Source: Desulfosediminicola ganghwensis (GTDB taxonomy: Bacteria > Desulfobacterota > Desulfobulbia > Desulfobulbales > Desulfocapsaceae). From it: DNA of 64,000 bases. A program made the position numbers and the translations under genes. The stretch lies in the NCBI RefSeq assembly GCF_005116675.2, contig NZ_CP050699.1, forward strand, positions 3,619,001 through 3,683,000, written 5' to 3'. A model generated the notes under the pieces. It worked only from the letters and a program-made list of their open reading frames with translations. It was not told the DNA's origin and did no database searches. Below, in pieces: positions 2,242 through 11,988 of the stretch (positions within the stretch are counted from its first letter, which is position 1; each line of letters opens with the position of its first letter).

Positions 2242-4245
2242 ATGATCGATTCTGGAAAAATCATAGAGTATCTGGATAATGGACGATTTATCTGTGCCTT
2301 GATCACGGAGGCCCAGCCTAAGCGGGTCCGCCTGATCAATCAAAATGGCAGGGAAGTTAACCTGCCGGCTTCGCGCATCGTTCATTGCTCCAAAATGGTC
2401 CTATCTCCTGAAACCAGCCGTGACACCCTGGTGAAAACTCTTAAAGAAATTACCGATAAACGGCAGGAGCTTGTCGACCAAATTTCCCTCAAGGATATCT
2501 GGGAGCTCACGATAGAAGAGCCCTCTGACACTTTTGATCCGGATTTTCTCGCAGAACTCTCCTTCGGTCAGGAACTTAATGACGACATAACCGCTGCCTT
2601 TCTTCGCTGCGTTTTCCTTGATAAATTGTACTTCAAATATAAGGAAGGAAAGCTCCGGGCGCACAGCGAAGACCAGGTCGAGCAGATCCGCCTGCAGCGC
2701 GAGCGTGAAGCCCAGAAAGCAGAACTGATTGCCAAGGGTGCATACACTATACGCGAAATGATGCGTCATGGTAAATCGTCCCAGGAAACCACCCGCTGGC
2801 AGGAGGAATGCCTGAAACTCCTCAGGGATTACTACCTGTTTGGAAACGACGCCGATAATGCCGACATTGCCAGACAGATCTTAAAAGAAGCAGAACTCAC
2901 CCGGCCACACGACGCTTACCATATTCTCGTTAAAGCCGGTGTGTGGAACAAAAATGAAAACATACCATTGCTCAGATCAAATTTGTCGGTAAGCTTCAGC
3001 CTGCCCGCCCGCCAACAAGCTGAAGGTATACTGCAAAGCCGACTCGAGGATCTTTTCAACGACACGGGACGGGTTGACTATACCCACCTGAAACCAATGA
3101 CCATCGATGGGGCTACGACTCTCGATTTCGATGATGCCCTCAGTGTTGAAAAGAAAGGTGATGACTACCTGGTTGGAATTCATATATCAGATGTTTCACA
3201 CTATGTTCGCCCCGGTGACCCTCTTTTTCAGGAAGCGATGAAACGCGGTACCTCCATCTACTTTCCTGAAGGGCAAATCCCAATGTTGCCCCGCCACCTC
3301 TCTCAGGGTATATGCAGCCTCATACAGGGAGAGATCAGGGCCACTTTCAGTTTCATGATTCTGATGACCGCTGAGGCAGAAGTCAAAAGAGTTCGCATTC
3401 ACCCTTCAATCATTAAAGTTGCCAGGCGCCTCACCTACGAAGAAGTTGACAGGATTATACAATCCGATGAAGAGCTTAAAATACTTAATGTTCTCAAACG
3501 GAAACTACGTGAAAGAAGACTCTCCCAGGGGGCATTACTACTGCCTTTCCCTGATGTAAACATCTTCATAGACACGGCAAGCAGAGTTCATGTCAGCCTT
3601 GGTAGAACCGATACTCCTGCAAGAACACTTGTCTCGGAAATGATGATACTCGCCAATAGCGAGGCGGCGCGTTACATTTCCGATCGTATGGTACCCGGTT
3701 TGTTCCGCAGTCAACCACCTTTGAGACAGCGTATTGTACATGGTGAAGACGATGATTTGTTTTTAAATATCCGGCAGCGCAAGCAGCTTCCTCGAGGTGA
3801 GCTTTCCACCAACGCCAACCCTCACAGCGGGCTCGGTGTCTCCCATTATACAACGGTGACCTCACCAATACGCCGTCTTCTCGATCTGGTAATGCAACAT
3901 CAGCTCAATACCATCACCAGAAGGCTCGAACCATGCTTTACCGAGGATATGTGCAGAGACTTCTCCTCAATTATCACCAGGGCCTTGTCAGCAGCCAACA
4001 ACGTTAAACAGCAGAGACATCGTTATTGGTTGATCAGGTATTTGCAGGAGCGAAAAGGACAACTCGTCAATGCTCTTGTTATCGACTCCGGTCCCAAAAG
4101 GGTCACCCTTGTTCTTACAGATATCCTGATGGATGTTGATCTTGCTTCACCTTCTGGTTACAGGCCAACACCTGGAACCACTATTCAGTTGAGAGTGAGT
4201 AAGGCTGATCCGATGGATAACACGGTTCGATTTGATTGGCCCTAG
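2242..4245 (+). CDS. RNB-domain exoribonuclease (RNase II/R family)
   Basis: 3'-to-5' processive exoribonuclease of the RNase II/R superfamily, 667 aa. The RNB catalytic core begins near residue 275. It carries the Asp-rich active-site motif around LDFDDALSVEKK, followed by GIHISDVSHYV, and near the end the conserved HYTTVTSPIRRLLDL. An N-terminal region of about 60 residues resembles the small beta-barrel found in cyanobacterial/chloroplast-type RNase II-like proteins. No long Lys-rich RNase R tail is present, and a C-terminal S1-like segment is short (residues 600-667). It is therefore closer in size to RNase II (about 640 aa) than to RNase R. ATG at 2242 has no strong Shine-Dalgarno. A hairpin terminator follows at once. 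Assignment to rnb or rnr proper is left open. Confidence 0.9.
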   Translation: MIDSGKIIEYLDNGRFICALITEAQPKRVRLINQNGREVNLPASRIVHCSKMVLSPETSRDTLVKTLKEITDKRQELVDQISLKDIWELTIEEPSDTFDPDFLAELSFGQELNDDITAAFLRCVFLDKLYFKYKEGKLRAHSEDQVEQIRLQREREAQKAELIAKGAYTIREMMRHGKSSQETTRWQEECLKLLRDYYLFGNDADNADIARQILKEAELTRPHDAYHILVKAGVWNKNENIPLLRSNLSVSFSLPARQQAEGILQSRLEDLFNDTGRVDYTHLKPMTIDGATTLDFDDALSVEKKGDDYLVGIHISDVSHYVRPGDPLFQEAMKRGTSIYFPEGQIPMLPRHLSQGICSLIQGEIRATFSFMILMTAEAEVKRVRIHPSIIKVARRLTYEEVDRIIQSDEELKILNVLKRKLRERRLSQGALLLPFPDVNIFIDTASRVHVSLGRTDTPARTLVSEMMILANSEAARYISDRMVPGLFRSQPPLRQRIVHGEDDDLFLNIRQRKQLPRGELSTNANPHSGLGVSHYTTVTSPIRRLLDLVMQHQLNTITRRLEPCFTEDMCRDFSSIITRALSAANNVKQQRHRYWLIRYLQERKGQLVNALVIDSGPKRVTLVLTDILMDVDLASPSGYRPTPGTTIQLRVSKADPMDNTVRFDWP

Positions 4246-4488: not shown

Positions 4489-4724
4489 CTCCGCCTCCTC
4501 TATATAGCGTTCACTTTACTCTTTTGTAGCGTTATTTATACATCCTCTACTGTTTTCGATATGAATGAAGCGTAATCGCCATGACATATTTAGTCAGCCG
4601 ACATAGGCTGGTTTCTGCAGGCATCAGGCCCGACATGACCCGACATGAAGGTATATCTCCAAGTATATATGCCTAATTTCATGGATATTATATCTATTTG
4701 AAAACTCTTGGCTTCCAACCGATA

Positions 4725-4766
4725 AGTCGAGTTGGTATATTCCTGTAGGAAATACTCAACTCGACT
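4725..4766. promoter_or_regulatory. Long interrupted palindrome upstream of HTH gene
   Basis: AGTCGAGTTG at 4725-4734 is repeated inverted as CAACTCGACT at 4757-4766. The interior adds GTAT/ATAC and TTCC/GGAA pairs around a TGTA loop, with two single-base bulges. The structure ends 18 bp before the ATG at 4785. Position and symmetry suit an operator bound by the HTH protein encoded next (autoregulation), or an mRNA hairpin in its leader. There is no T-tract, so a terminator is less likely. Confidence 0.5.
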
Positions 4767-4784: not shown

Positions 4785-5753
4785 ATGACCGAAACACAGC
4801 ATCAGGGTGTCATGGCGATGGTAAAAATTGATGGCAGCAAAGCGAGACAACTCCGTGAGCAGAAATCTCTCACCCAGTTGTATGTAGCAACCGCCGTGCA
4901 AGTCACCACCGATACCATTTCCAGATGGGAAAATAGACGATACCCCACGATAAAGAGAGAGAACGCCCTTAAACTCGCCGAAGCTCTTGAAGTAGCTCTT
5001 GAGGAGATACTGGAAACACCGCCCGAACCGGTACCGAATGGCGAGGAAGCGGAATCACAACAACACAGTGTGAATTTCCAGCATGAAAAAGAGCGAAGGA
5101 CCGAGACAGTCAAACAGGGTGTGTACGTTCGCTGGCCGATACTTCTGCTCTCCTCGACCATTGCTGCGCTTATTTGTCTGGTAGGCTGGGTTTACTTCAA
5201 CATGGAGGATTCACCCTCAGTTGCTGTAACGGCCAAGAGAAACTTACCCGCTCATTGCACCCCGGGTCAGGTATTCCCTGTCAGCATTGAGGTAAACGTC
5301 CAATCAGACGAGCCTCTTGCCTTTATAGTAAAGGAGCAGCTACCCGACGGCTTTGAAGCTATTCAGGCCGCACCGGCACTGTCTAGTTCCGGTAAAAAGG
5401 TGAACACTCTCAAGTGGCTCCAGAAAGGTCACGGCAAACACATCTTCACATATACCGCCATAATGAAAGATACAACCATCGAAGCTGATGAGTTTTCAGG
5501 AGGCATCGCCATCAACAAACAATCCGGAGCTTCTTATTCCATCCTGGGGAGCGACACGATCATCGTAAGTGATTACCACTGGGCCGACAGCAACCGCGAT
5601 CGGGTAATAAGCGATTCAGAGATCCTGACCGTATATGACCAGTACGGCGAAGTGGAAGTACACGGTATCGACCTCGATCTTATTGAAGAGATCTGGCTTG
5701 GCTCCGGATATACCTGGAACCCAGATACTCAAACCTACCAAATACTCCCGTAG
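4785..5753 (+). CDS. Membrane-tethered XRE-type HTH regulator with extracytoplasmic beta domain
   Basis: 322 aa with an unusual layout. Residues ~12-75 form an XRE/Cro-like HTH (ARQLREQKSLTQLYVATAVQ, then TISRWENRRYPTIKRENALKLAEAL). A hydrophilic linker follows (~80-120), then one membrane segment (PILLLSSTIAALICLVGWVYF, ~125-147). The extracytoplasmic part (~150-322) opens with a DUF11-like beta domain (EQLPDGFEA, NTLKWLQKGHGKH). It ends with an EF-hand or dockerin-like acidic loop (DSNRDRVISDSEI) and a second acidic segment. The topology implies a DNA-binding head inside the cell and a sensor outside. The ATG at 4812 has a better RBS (AGGGTG 4 bp upstream) than the one at 4785, so the true start may be nine codons later without touching the HTH. 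It is followed after 45 bp by a secreted protein with a similar beta domain. Confidence 0.8.
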   Translation: MTETQHQGVMAMVKIDGSKARQLREQKSLTQLYVATAVQVTTDTISRWENRRYPTIKRENALKLAEALEVALEEILETPPEPVPNGEEAESQQHSVNFQHEKERRTETVKQGVYVRWPILLLSSTIAALICLVGWVYFNMEDSPSVAVTAKRNLPAHCTPGQVFPVSIEVNVQSDEPLAFIVKEQLPDGFEAIQAAPALSSSGKKVNTLKWLQKGHGKHIFTYTAIMKDTTIEADEFSGGIAINKQSGASYSILGSDTIIVSDYHWADSNRDRVISDSEILTVYDQYGEVEVHGIDLDLIEEIWLGSGYTWNPDTQTYQILP

Positions 5754-5798
5754 AAGTTCAACAGGCAACCGATAGCAAGCGGAGGCATTCAATAATAA

Positions 5799-6209
5799 AT
5801 GTGTACAATTAAAACAAACCATTCCTGTATTTATCGAATAATCATTACATTATTCACCCTGTTGTTGCTTTCTTCTATTGAGGCGATGGCCAAGGAGCCG
5901 GTAATCGGAAAATATCTAAGTTCCTCAGGGAATACGATCCGCCTTCAACTCTCAGTCAGTTCCCCGGCCCCCCAAAATCTGATACTGCAACAGCACCTGC
6001 CGCCAGGCACACGGGTCCTGTCAACCTCTCCAAAGGCCATAAAGATTTCTCAGAATAATGGTGTTGTCAAATGGCTCTTCAAGGGAGTATCGCCAGGCAA
6101 AATAGAAGTCGTGATGAAGATTCAGCCTCCAGCGGCAGGCTCAGTTCGCGGCTCCATTCGCTATAGAATGGCAGACGGCACCATGCACGAAAAGCCTGTC
6201 GGAAGATAA
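5799..6209 (+). CDS. Secreted beta-domain protein, partner of the tethered regulator
   Basis: 136 aa with a signal peptide (IIITLFTLLLLSSIEAMA) and a mature domain of ~105 residues. The core, QQHLPPGTRVL ... NNGVVKWLFKGVSPGKIEV, lines up with EQLPDGFEAI ... VNTLKWLQKGHGKHIF in the extracytoplasmic domain of the preceding gene. The two genes therefore look like relatives in that domain, of the DUF11/conserved-repeat beta-sandwich type. The gene lies 45 bp downstream on the same strand, likely in the same transcript. A role as ligand, inhibitor or co-sensor for the tethered regulator is inference. The exact start (5799) gives a 30-residue signal sequence; a later start is possible. Confidence 0.65.
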   Translation: MCTIKTNHSCIYRIIITLFTLLLLSSIEAMAKEPVIGKYLSSSGNTIRLQLSVSSPAPQNLILQQHLPPGTRVLSTSPKAIKISQNNGVVKWLFKGVSPGKIEVVMKIQPPAAGSVRGSIRYRMADGTMHEKPVGR

Positions 6210-6236: not shown

Positions 6237-6854
6237 CTATCCTGCTGTGAGGGAACGTATCGGCACAAGATGAAATGCTATAGTCCACATGGTAATGCAG
6301 ATCAAACCATCCAATATTCTCCAGGCTGTTTTTCCATTTAAGATTGGCGAGAGCAAAACACCTCCAAGGCTTAAGGTGTAAAACCAGATAAAGGAGGCCA
6401 GGCACGCCCCCGCAGCAAAGACGTACCGCCCCTCAGCACCAAACTGCCCACTTATCCCTCCAAGAAGAACAACTGTATCCAAGTACATATGAGGGTTTAA
6501 CAAAGTAACTGAAAATGTTGCCAATATCACGGCCCACCTGGAACTGTAGATATCATTTGCCTTCTCAAGTCTGTTGCCTGCAATCGCTGAGCGCAGCGAA
6601 CAATAACCATAATATACAAGGAATAGTGCTCCACCACATCCTGCAACATTTCGTATAACCGGATTTTGCACTACTAGAGTCCCTACTCCCGCTGCACCTA
6701 AAAAGATGAAAAATGCATCGCAAAAGCTGCAAATAGTTGCCACAGCCCAGTTATGCTGCTTACGTACTCCTTGGGTCAACACAAAAGCATTCTGGGCCCC
6801 GATGGCGATGATTAGACCTGCACCAGTTGCCATACCCTGTAAAAACACATTCAT
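6237..6854 (-). CDS. argO: LysE/ArgO family amino-acid exporter
   Basis: Inner-membrane exporter of basic amino acids, 205 aa with six hydrophobic segments. Family signatures are near the N-terminus (IAIGAQNAFVLTQGVRKQH) and in the middle (TLLNPHMYLDTVVLLGG), both diagnostic of the LysE/ArgO group. It is divergent from an ArgP-type LysR regulator across 97 bp, the arrangement known for lysE/lysG and argO/argP. In those systems the regulator activates export when intracellular Arg or Lys is high or supplied as dipeptides. The substrate here (Arg, Lys or both) cannot be read from sequence. The 3' end overlaps a 7-bp GC-rich hairpin (CCCTCAC/GTGAGGG, 6221-6253) that may help terminate transcription. 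Confidence 0.9.
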   Translation of the reverse strand: MNVFLQGMATGAGLIIAIGAQNAFVLTQGVRKQHNWAVATICSFCDAFFIFLGAAGVGTLVVQNPVIRNVAGCGGALFLVYYGYCSLRSAIAGNRLEKANDIYSSRWAVILATFSVTLLNPHMYLDTVVLLGGISGQFGAEGRYVFAAGACLASFIWFYTLSLGGVLLSPILNGKTAWRILDGLICITMWTIAFHLVPIRSLTAG

Positions 6855-6951: not shown

Positions 6952-7866
6952 ATGCTCGATTACAAGCTACTAGAAGCATTTGCCATGGTCATTTTGGAAG
7001 GCGGGTTTGAAAAAGCTGCTCGAAAGCTTTGTTTAACGCAATCGGCTGTTTCTCAACGGGTTCGACAACTCGAAGACCTTTATGGGACGATACTGCTGAA
7101 ACGGACAACCCCGCCACAGTCCACCGACTCAGGTCTTCAGCTCTTAATTCACTATAAAAAAGTAAAACAGCTGGAACGTGATCTTGATCAGCAAAATTCC
7201 GGTGATGAGAACACATTCCACTCCCTTTCCATAGGGGTGAACGCAGACACCCTGGAAACATGGTTCTTTTCTTCAGTCCAGAGACTGCTTCATCAGTACA
7301 ATATTGTGCTTGATCTGCAGGTTGACGATCAGGATATGACCCATGAACTTTTAAAAGATGGCAAGGTTTGGGGTTGTATCAGCACCCGCCCGACACCTCA
7401 ACAAGGTTGCACCGCCGAATTTCTCGGTGCAGTTCGTTATGGGATTTATGCAGCGCCGATTTTTAAAGAGAAATGGTTCTCTTCAGGCATAAACCTTGAT
7501 GTCTTCCAGAATGCTCCACTGGTACGTTTTAACCGGAAAGATGAATTGAGTAGAAAAATTCTTACTGAAATTTTTGGTGAGTTACCAAAATCAATCGCCG
7601 ATCATTCAGGACTGACACGACCACCGGTGTTCTTTGTTCCCTCCACTGAGATTTATGCGCTCTTCGTTACAGATGGATTGTGTTGGGGAGTGTTGCCGGA
7701 ACAGCAAAGCAAGCCCTTGGAATCTTCTGGTAAAATTGTCAATCTCAGCCCCGAAAATTACGTCGATGTAAATCTCTTCTGGCATAGCTGGACTTTGAAA
7801 TCAGAAACCATGCAGTGCTATTCAAAGCATTTCATCACCCAGGCCAGAGAAGTGTTGCACAATTAA
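6952..7866 (+). CDS. argP: LysR-family regulator, ArgP/LysG type
   Basis: 304 aa LysR-type transcription factor. The N-terminal winged HTH (residues ~4-62) reads LLEAFAMVILEGGFEKAARK then LCLTQSAVSQRVRQLED, typical of ArgP (formerly IciA). The remaining ~220 residues form the effector-binding periplasmic-binding-like fold, including FVPSTEIYALFVTDGLCWGV. The divergent argO-like exporter is its expected target, and the 97 bp between them should hold the LysR box. In the ArgP/LysG family the co-effector is lysine and/or arginine. A weak hairpin with T-run (about 7899-7922) follows the gene. Confidence 0.9.
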   Translation: MLDYKLLEAFAMVILEGGFEKAARKLCLTQSAVSQRVRQLEDLYGTILLKRTTPPQSTDSGLQLLIHYKKVKQLERDLDQQNSGDENTFHSLSIGVNADTLETWFFSSVQRLLHQYNIVLDLQVDDQDMTHELLKDGKVWGCISTRPTPQQGCTAEFLGAVRYGIYAAPIFKEKWFSSGINLDVFQNAPLVRFNRKDELSRKILTEIFGELPKSIADHSGLTRPPVFFVPSTEIYALFVTDGLCWGVLPEQQSKPLESSGKIVNLSPENYVDVNLFWHSWTLKSETMQCYSKHFITQAREVLHN

Positions 7867-9242: not shown

Positions 9243-9519
9243 TCGACCAACTCCTCCAAAGACACAAAGATCAACTTATACTACTGTATTTACGTCACAT
9301 AACAGCTAGCATCGGACCCGACATGCCCCTGCATGTACCCCTGAACCGAGGTAAAAGTAACCCCGTTTGACCAGATGTCAGCTATCTCTCTGAACAAAAT
9401 GAAAATATAAATAACCCATACCCAGAAGGGATGCAGCAAGCTTTACAAATTTCATTAAGAATCAAGACACTATCATTAACCTTAATGCAATCAGTTCAAT
9501 TACAACCAGGAGGCACATC

Positions 9520-9975
9520 ATGAAAAGGACTCGAATAGCAATATTGGCAATCGTAATAAGCGGCCTTGGTCTCAATTCAGCCCAGGCAGGTGAAAAAGCA
9601 TTAAACGGTATGCTCATCGGCGCTGGCAGTGGTGCAGTACTTGGCCAGGCTATAGGTCGGGATACAGAATCAACTATCGCCGGCACAGTTGTTGGCAGCA
9701 TAACAGGCCTGGTAATAGGCAGTAGCCTTGATCATGGGAAAACACAATATGCGCACCGTAGGCCTCCTGTAAAACATGTCTATTATCCACCACCGAGATA
9801 TAAACACAAAGCAAAGCATCATCGTCCCCATTATGCACCTCCGAAATATAAGAATTGCACCAAGGTGGTGAAAGTAAAAAACAAACATGGCCATAAAAAA
9901 CGAGTGGTAACCACTACATGCTATGACAGACCTCACAAAGCACGATATCACCACCATCCGGTTGTCTATCGCTAA
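9520..9975 (+). CDS. Glycine-zipper envelope protein with His/Lys-rich tail
   Basis: 151 aa. A signal peptide (IAILAIVISGLGLNSAQA) is followed by a glycine-zipper domain (LNGMLIGAGSGAVLGQAIGR, then IAGTVVGSITGLVIGSSLDHG, residues ~30-75). The rest is very basic and rich in His, Tyr and Pro (RRPPVKHVYYPPP, KHKAKHHRPHYAPPKY), with a Cys pair near the end (NCTKVV, TTTCYDR). Glycine-zipper proteins insert in or associate with the outer or inner membrane. The His-rich tail could bind metal ions, which is inference. A strong RBS (CAGGAGGC) precedes the ATG and a strong terminator follows, so this is a single-gene transcript. Confidence 0.8.
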   Translation: MKRTRIAILAIVISGLGLNSAQAGEKALNGMLIGAGSGAVLGQAIGRDTESTIAGTVVGSITGLVIGSSLDHGKTQYAHRRPPVKHVYYPPPRYKHKAKHHRPHYAPPKYKNCTKVVKVKNKHGHKKRVVTTTCYDRPHKARYHHHPVVYR

Positions 9976-10290: not shown

Positions 10291-10539
10291 TTATGTGACT
10301 GATGTTACTACGCTAAAAGATACGTAACGCAAATCGGATTTCATGTTTCATCCCTTCTACCTTTTCACCCTCCCTTCACAAAATTTGGCAAGACAATTGC
10401 TGATGATCAGACAATTCTATAATTTTCCCTATCACTTCCTATTTTCATCTGCAATTTCGGTACCGTATGGTAAGATGCTATTAATTCAATAAGCTAAAAT
10501 AGATTTTTGATAAAATGTCCTGCATTCTCACGTGATTTA

Positions 10540-11988
10540 ATGAAAACAAAGCACCATAGTCAATCATTTATAGGACGCTGCATTTTAGACACCCTGGCTG
10601 GCCTGCGAGAGGGGCTTTCCCGCTTTTCCGGAAACAGTCGCAGTGCTGTCATTTTCTGTCTTAATCCTGGGGATCCCCTGCTTATCTGCGATCCACAGAA
10701 TTTACTTCGAGGGTATGAGCCCAAACTCAAAGATTTATATATAGATAATCAGAGTTGGAGGGACGAAGATTGCCAACGCTACGACCGCAAACTCTACAAC
10801 CGCATAGCACCAGTTGAAAACCTGCAACTTGACGGCCTTATCAGTTATGGAGGCTGCTCGGGTGCTGTATACTATCAGGTCTGGTTCACCGAACACCATC
10901 CAAACATGTGCTCCATCGGCCCGACAGAGCGATGGCTCGAGCACACCGTTCTGCGCTTCTCTCATGATATGGCGAACGAGAGCCGCCTATATACTGGAAT
11001 TTCAGGCAGTTTTCTCAGAGAATACACCACTCACGCGGTGAGAGATTACATTGTCGATCAGGTAAATCTGAGACTTGGGATAGATACCCACGTGCGGATC
11101 TATCAGGCACTAGAATCTGTACTCGGCATCTCAAAAACGCCGGAAGAAGGAGCTGTGCCACATGGAGAACTTATCTTCGTGGAACCACGACTCCTGCACC
11201 AGTTGAACATGATTGCCGAATTCAGCTCGGAGCAGCAACCACAATTAAACCATCATAAGCATATTCGCAAATTGCTGCTCTCTGTTGAGCACAGTAACAA
11301 CAAGTTAGTCTCTAATGGCACCAGAATTCTTGGGGTTTGTGATCAGCATCTACCTGAATTCTGTCTTGTTGCCGATTTTCAGGGAAAACTTGGTTATCTG
11401 CGGCTCAATGACGACCTTGTTTGCAGCTTTGAAGATGGCAGCTTCAACTCCACCACTCATCGAGCTAAGCTTTTCGAAGTCGAGGAAATCCTGCTCGACT
11501 ACGATCTTGACACCAGTGTCAGAAACAGCCTGTTCCAGGTTGTCTCGGCTCTGGTCCACAATGCCGAAACCAACGGTTTTGGCTGTACGCTTGTGGTCGA
11601 TTTGGAAGATGACTACACAGGAATATCAGGGCAACTTCTCACGCCACCAATTGATCTTCAACAGCCAGAGAGCCTTGCCCTCGCTGCAGGCCTTTCCCGC
11701 ACTGATGGAGCCCTGCATATACGTGCTGATCAGTATCTCCATGCCTTCGCCTGCCTTCTCGACGGCTTGAGCATCCCTGGAGAGGATAGAGCCCGCGGCG
11801 CCCGCTACAACTCTGCGCTCAGGTTTACTGCTATTAGAAATAATAGCATTGTAATAGTCGTCTCCTCAGATCGCCCGGTATCCGTTATATATAGAGGGGT
11901 TGAGGCTCGTAAACGCCACCCGTTCACGCCGGCTGACTTCTGCTCACTCTCTACTGAATTACTCAGCACCTGGCTTGGCAGTGACTAG
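10540..11988 (+). CDS. Divergent DAC-domain (diadenylate cyclase-like) protein
   Basis: About 482 aa from the ATG at 10540 (an in-frame TTG at 10507 would add 11 residues; neither has a clear RBS). The C-terminal ~130 residues resemble the DisA_N/DAC fold that makes c-di-AMP from two ATP. A DGA motif lies in GLSRTDGALHIRAD, and RGARYNSALRFTA occupies the place of the usual GTRHRAA, followed by a beta-strand SIVIVVSSD. The N-terminal ~340 residues are a sensor-like region (ISYGGCSGAVYYQVWF, GPTERWLEHTVLRF) like those attached to DAC domains in predicted signalling proteins. Note RYN instead of RHR at the ATP-contact motif. Cytoplasmic, no membrane segments. Nucleotide cyclase activity is plausible but not certain. 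A terminator follows. Confidence 0.7.
   Translation: MKTKHHSQSFIGRCILDTLAGLREGLSRFSGNSRSAVIFCLNPGDPLLICDPQNLLRGYEPKLKDLYIDNQSWRDEDCQRYDRKLYNRIAPVENLQLDGLISYGGCSGAVYYQVWFTEHHPNMCSIGPTERWLEHTVLRFSHDMANESRLYTGISGSFLREYTTHAVRDYIVDQVNLRLGIDTHVRIYQALESVLGISKTPEEGAVPHGELIFVEPRLLHQLNMIAEFSSEQQPQLNHHKHIRKLLLSVEHSNNKLVSNGTRILGVCDQHLPEFCLVADFQGKLGYLRLNDDLVCSFEDGSFNSTTHRAKLFEVEEILLDYDLDTSVRNSLFQVVSALVHNAETNGFGCTLVVDLEDDYTGISGQLLTPPIDLQQPESLALAAGLSRTDGALHIRADQYLHAFACLLDGLSIPGEDRARGARYNSALRFTAIRNNSIVIVVSSDRPVSVIYRGVEARKRHPFTPADFCSLSTELLSTWLGSD

Follow-up and report, generated by a model that had tools for sequence, protein, structure and literature searches.

The locus examined here, in a 64,000-nucleotide window of the Desulfosediminicola ganghwensis genome, raises the question of what a membrane-anchored DNA-binding protein might sense and control, and what role is played by the exported protein encoded directly downstream of it. 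The genome is a single contig of 5.65 Mb; among named organisms, those closest to it are Desulfosediminicola flagellatus and Desulfopila aestuarii. Both open reading frames, P1 (322 amino acids; 4785-5753, plus strand) and P2 (136 amino acids; 5799-6209, plus strand), were found exactly where the first-pass annotation had placed them. P1 and P2 probably constitute a trans-envelope one-component activator of an envelope and electron-transfer regulon, in which P2 would be a secreted co-receptor or decoy; this reading draws on sequence comparison and predicted structures.

P1 was classified as an XRE-type regulator from its HTH_3 match, its AlphaFold2 (AF2) model and its orthologues, and consists of a helix-turn-helix (HTH) domain, a linker, a transmembrane helix, an Ig-like sandwich and an EF-hand-like module, in that order. 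The Pfam HTH_3 profile matched with 40.8 bits (curated cut-off 23), and the AF2 model, built from an alignment of 46 rows, has a pLDDT of 86.7. The DNA-binding domain (residues 12-80; 4818-5024, plus strand) is defined by the HTH_3 match, by the HTH fold of the model (residues 12-75) and by conservation, with a mean column conservation of 0.81 compared to 0.35-0.46 in the linker, transmembrane helix and sandwich, a value that is biased upward for the named loci because these were retrieved with HTH peptides. Residues 85-110 are modelled as a disordered linker, followed by a single transmembrane helix (residues 117-139; 5133-5201, plus strand) that is hydrophobic in sequence and one long helix in the model. 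The outer Ig-like beta-sandwich (residues 147-252; 5223-5540, plus strand) was delimited from the AF2 model, hhalign and a fold search, which returned only generic Ig, FnIII, macroglobulin-like and CARDB sandwiches and points to no function; the outer domain, Ig-like part and EF-hand together, had no Pfam, NCBIfam or significant PDB sequence match.

The EF-hand-like helical part of the model (about residues 264-305) contains a loop of canonical form, D268-x-N-x-D-x-x-I-x-D-x-E279 (5586-5621, plus strand), followed by a helix (residues 277-287). Its ligand positions are invariant in character across 46 orthologues: D at position 1, D or N at positions 3 and 5, and E at position 12, in 46 of 46 sequences each. 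There was no Pfam EF-hand or dockerin match in P1, and EF-hand proteins (juvenile hormone diol kinase and calmodulin-domain kinases) are among its weak PDB matches (E 0.3-0.9). The loop sequence and the model suggest that the outer part of P1 binds Ca2+, and calcium may possibly be the input to P1. With a predicted DNA-binding domain and a membrane helix on the same polypeptide, P1 has the design of a transmembrane one-component regulator; the first-pass annotation had given it a DNA-binding head, one membrane helix and an outer beta domain with a calcium-like loop, and the HTH_3 match, the model and the EF loop bear this out.

P2 begins with a signal-type hydrophobic helix, and the remainder is modelled as an all-beta structure (pLDDT 92.1), an Ig/Reeler-like sandwich; no lipocalin was among the 50 PDB matches listed. 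Alignment of P2 with the P1 sandwich by hhalign gave a probability of 97.5% (E 6e-12, 81 columns), compared to 0.1% for the control alignments with the HTH and EF segments of P1, and P2 as a query directly recovered P1 outer domains from other genomes (E 1e-5 to 1e-3). The signal-type helix and the hhalign result confirm the earlier proposal that the second protein is exported and related to the outer domain of P1, and both motif pairs that had been cited for this kinship (LPPGTRVL/LPDGFEAI and VVKWLFKG/TLKWLQKG) lie inside the alignment. The proposal had been staked on structural likeness of the two outer domains and on conserved pairing in relatives; both were found, and it survives. By these alignments and its adjacency to P1, P2 is considered an exported paralogue of the P1 sandwich that lacks the EF-hand. 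When P2 and the P1 outer domains were placed in one tree, they separated into two clean clades (support 1.0), indicating one old duplication of which the copies were kept side by side. The domain was not found outside P1 and P2 in the genome itself or in the relatives searched; extracellular proteins combining a dockerin with this sandwich, considered as possible kin, were also not found there.

The distribution of the pair was surveyed in two sets of genomes: 80 named P1 loci gathered with two HTH peptides, and 38 relatives not selected in this way. P1 matches at E<=0.001 were present in 28 of the 38 relatives, 25 of them strong and single-copy, and full-length relatives of P1 also occur in scattered other families within the phylum. 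No plasmid relatives of the pair were matched, and PADLOC matches to defence systems were confined to the HTH. A P2 homologue lies directly downstream of P1 on the same strand in 60 of the 80 named loci, several pairs overlapping by 4 nucleotides, and P2 is present in 22 of the 38 relatives (directly downstream of P1 in 21, and 465 nucleotides off in one); the pairing, for which the first-pass annotation had proposed a co-occurrence survey, is conserved. P2 is missing at 20 of the 80 named loci, one of which is cut by a contig end, and is therefore not obligatory for P1. P2 distances correlate with P1 outer-domain distances (r 0.77), and with four neighbouring genes as controls the partial correlation is 0.43-0.66 for the outer domain and 0.11-0.44 for the HTH, which is only suggestive because the samples are small (10-14 loci in the controls). 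Such correlated divergence is compatible with physical interaction of P2 and the P1 outer domain, short of proof.

P2 could instead be a beta-sandwich protein, periplasmic or secreted, that works independently and shares nothing with P1 except operon and ancestry, a possibility that we consider doubtful. The loci that have P1 without P2 are in keeping with it, but P2 was never seen among the 38 relatives without P1 or away from it, and its divergence follows that of the P1 outer domain more than that of the HTH when other genes are controlled for. We favour the reading that P2 binds the outer domain of P1 or captures its ligand.

Many of the regions upstream of P1 contain a conserved nucleotide sequence. 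Motif discovery by expectation maximization in 92 regions upstream of P1, confined to strictly upstream sequence with the P1 coding start left out, yielded AGCCGACATCGGGYNATATC (log-likelihood 432, compared to 75 for shuffled sequence). The motif is present in 57 of the 92 regions, with a gap in score beneath them, and 35 have no recognisable site; the form common to the relatives is GATRTC-N-CC-Y-GATGTC-NN-CTA. A scan of 1.4 Mb of loci found 130 matches above 16 bits and one in the reversed sequence. The motif is asymmetric, and its orientation is away from P1: it faces the divergent gene or, elsewhere, a glycine-zipper gene. A strict palindromic pattern, GAYATC-N4-GATRTC, was tried genome-wide and rejected, its matches being mostly due to chance; the asymmetric composite pattern was needed. 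In the window, one site is directed toward the divergent gene (GAAACCAGCCTATGTCGGCTGA; 4594-4615, minus strand; 16.1 bits), with a -10-like box, TACGCT, 20 nucleotides on, and two further sites overlap each other nearby (CATGTCGGGTCATGTCGGGCCT and GATATACCTTCATGTCGGGTCA; 4626-4657, minus strand; 16.2 and 13.3 bits). Another site precedes the glycine-zipper gene (CGTTTGACCAGATGTCAGCTAT; 9364-9385, plus strand; 15.2 bits) and is followed at an exact spacing of 21 nucleotides by the -10 sequence TATAAA (9406-9411). Sites in the genus of the window are degenerate (13-17 bits). There is a strong case for assigning GATRTC-N-CC-Y-GATGTC-NN-CTA as the predicted DNA site of the regulator, and P1 is presumably the protein that binds it.

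The first-pass annotation had looked for the operator elsewhere, in a palindrome at 4725-4766. This is a perfect 10-bp inverted repeat, one of about a dozen of its kind in the window; none of the other orthologues compared has it upstream, and it overlaps an ordinary extended -10 element (TGGTATATT; 4733-4741, plus strand), conserved in close relatives, that probably belongs to the promoter of the P1-P2 operon. Thus, the design, the gene pairing and the homologous outer domains of the proposed trans-envelope one-component system are upheld, and the palindrome as its operator is not.

When 55 non-redundant target promoters were aligned on the site, a -10 box was found 20-21 nucleotides after it in 36 of them (1 after shuffling), and the alignment showed no TTGACA-like -35 consensus. 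This spacing places the site near -54 to -33, where class II activators sit, and the fixed spacing together with the missing -35 box indicates the layout of a class II activator. XRE proteins commonly act as repressors, and the site touches the -35 position; it is conceivable, but rather unlikely, that P1 is a membrane-anchored repressor over the -35 region that releases its targets when the outer domain is triggered. The fixed 20-21 nucleotides to the -10 box and the missing -35 box fit promoters that need an activator, and repressor sites seldom hold one exact spacing. Activation by P1, rather than repression, is therefore considered likely from the promoter sequences.

The genes downstream of these sites encode exported proteins. 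The gene divergent from P1 (4294-4488, minus strand), a probable target, encodes a secreted ExtJ-like protein of 64 amino acids that matches the profile of its family alignment (A5) with E 6e-21. The window copy falls under the cut-off of NCBIfam ExtJ (NF040942; E 0.0027, 18.1 bits, cut-off 52.5), and the relative tested is above it (59.1 bits). Across the loci, the gene divergent from P1 encodes either a small secreted protein with two to three cysteines or a multihaem class III cytochrome c, and the small ExtJ-like gene is sometimes located beyond the divergent cytochrome c gene. The second probable target in the window (9520-9975, plus strand) encodes an exported glycine-zipper protein (Pfam Gly-zipper_YMGG and Rick_17kDa_Anti, above cut-off), and a GATRTC-type site also precedes glycine-zipper homologues in relatives. 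A search of 258 genomes of the order with the composite pattern (site, 22 nucleotides, TANNNT) gave 44 matches, compared to 3 in the reversed control. Among those inspected are P1-linked cytochrome and ExtJ promoters, tetrahaem cytochrome c3 genes at other loci, and glycine-zipper genes that adjoin rlmN on contigs other than the one carrying P1; a few look like chance. The site might belong to another regulator and cluster near P1 by coincidence, but this is improbable: in many families of the order the interval separating P1 from its divergent neighbour holds such sites, they also occur at unlinked targets, and of the 38 relatives only P1-bearing genomes were found to have intergenic sites in front of exported target genes.

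Several further arrangements of such genes were noted. The genome has a second ExtJ-like gene (L242; C1:2741234-2741437) between a TlpA-like thioredoxin gene and uppP, an arrangement found again in many relatives; no convincing regulator site precedes it where looked at, so it is not obviously in the regulon. Three ExtJ-like genes are in tandem at another locus (L260; G029:C109, about 2697-3531). At L297 and L305 a tetrahaem cytochrome c3 gene with a regulator site is followed by a large class A penicillin-binding protein look-alike, and at L301 (G395:C209) a regulator-type promoter precedes a gene for a small exported His- and Gly-rich protein, the membership of which in the glycine-zipper family is not clear-cut. 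Near P1-P2 in the window are an ArgO/LysE-type exporter gene (6237-6854, minus strand), found again at the same place in some relatives, which is divergent from an ArgP-type LysR regulator gene (6952-7866, plus strand), and a gene (10507-11988) encoding DACND-DACNH sensor domains and a DisA-type diadenylate cyclase domain in one protein, kept near P1-P2 in 12 of the loci compared. The conserved neighbours Era, RNase II/R-like and ResB/Ccs were considered as a functional module and rejected, being housekeeping genes shared by position only.

The favoured mechanism, of an activator that spans the membrane, would operate as follows. The XRE-type head of P1 would be in the cytoplasm, with the Ig-like domain and the EF-hand loop facing the periplasm, where the state of P1 would most likely be set by Ca2+ occupancy, perhaps together with another ligand. 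In the right state, the head would bind its sites, immediately before promoters with a -10 box and lacking a -35 box, and recruit RNA polymerase. The predicted regulon comprises exported envelope and electron-transfer proteins: the ExtJ-like small periplasmic protein, multihaem cytochromes c and the glycine-zipper protein. P2, from the same operon as P1, would be a soluble copy of the sensor sandwich in the periplasm; most likely it either forms a heterodimer with the outer domain of P1 or captures the ligand of that domain, thereby tuning the switch. A more specific version, in which a calcium-gated activator of the Desulfobulbales is accompanied by a secreted EF-hand-free decoy that competes with or completes the membrane sensor, is put forward tentatively.

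RodZ has the same layout of HTH, transmembrane helix and periplasmic beta domain, but it is highly improbable that P1 is a RodZ-like morphogenesis protein rather than a DNA-binding regulator: its head is of a different HTH family (HTH_3), a RodZ-type HTH or C-terminal DUF4115 had no Pfam match in P1 even at E<=10, a separate gene that resembles RodZ, in sequence only, is present in the genome (L242 1526-2155), and P1 and its targets are accompanied by conserved DNA sites at the target promoters. The co-component systems ToxR/ToxS, VtrA/VtrC, GrvA/FidL and PsaE/PsaF (Kinch et al. 2022, PMC9214523) are similar to P1-P2 in having a membrane-tethered HTH regulator with a periplasmic domain, and a periplasmic partner encoded directly downstream in an often overlapping operon. 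The head of those regulators is a CadC/OmpR-type winged helix, whereas that of P1 is XRE/HTH_3, with no Pfam match to Trans_reg_C. ToxS and VtrC are unrelated proteins, lipocalin-like and membrane-tethered, whereas P2 is soluble, exported and homologous to the outer domain of P1; the EF-hand in that domain is a further difference. P1-P2 is placed outside the ToxR/ToxS-type family because head family and partner fold were both tested and differ. Among the transmembrane transcription regulators that have been surveyed (PMC10269533), P1 resembles the CadC type in its cytoplasmic HTH, one transmembrane helix and periplasmic sensor, and P1-P2 is unlike that type in its Ig-like and EF-hand module, its dedicated secreted paralogue, and the order-wide predicted site and targets. 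ExtJ is part of the extHIJKL cluster of Geobacter (PMC5877670, PMC6148476), and the divergent target product in the relative tested belongs to the same small periplasmic family. Most such Geobacter clusters are opposite a gene for a LysR-family regulator (PMC6148476), whereas the ExtJ-like gene here adjoins that of a membrane-anchored XRE regulator, its probable controller. No paper describing the P1-P2 family was found in the open-licence literature searched.

To our knowledge, few membrane-anchored transcription factors outside the enteric pathogens have a known DNA site or regulon. For P1, sequence comparison throughout an order of sulfate reducers yields a predicted site, the promoter architecture and the probable targets, which makes P1 directly testable. 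Through the ExtJ-like, multihaem cytochrome and glycine-zipper targets, electron transfer and envelope maintenance in sediment bacteria are tied to a periplasmic signal that may be calcium. If P2 binds P1, co-component signalling would have had a second origin, through duplication of the sensor. Should the tentative calcium-gated version with its secreted decoy be true, P2 would set the threshold at which genes for envelope and multihaem electron-transfer proteins are switched on, and the co-component system would have evolved independently of ToxR/ToxS.
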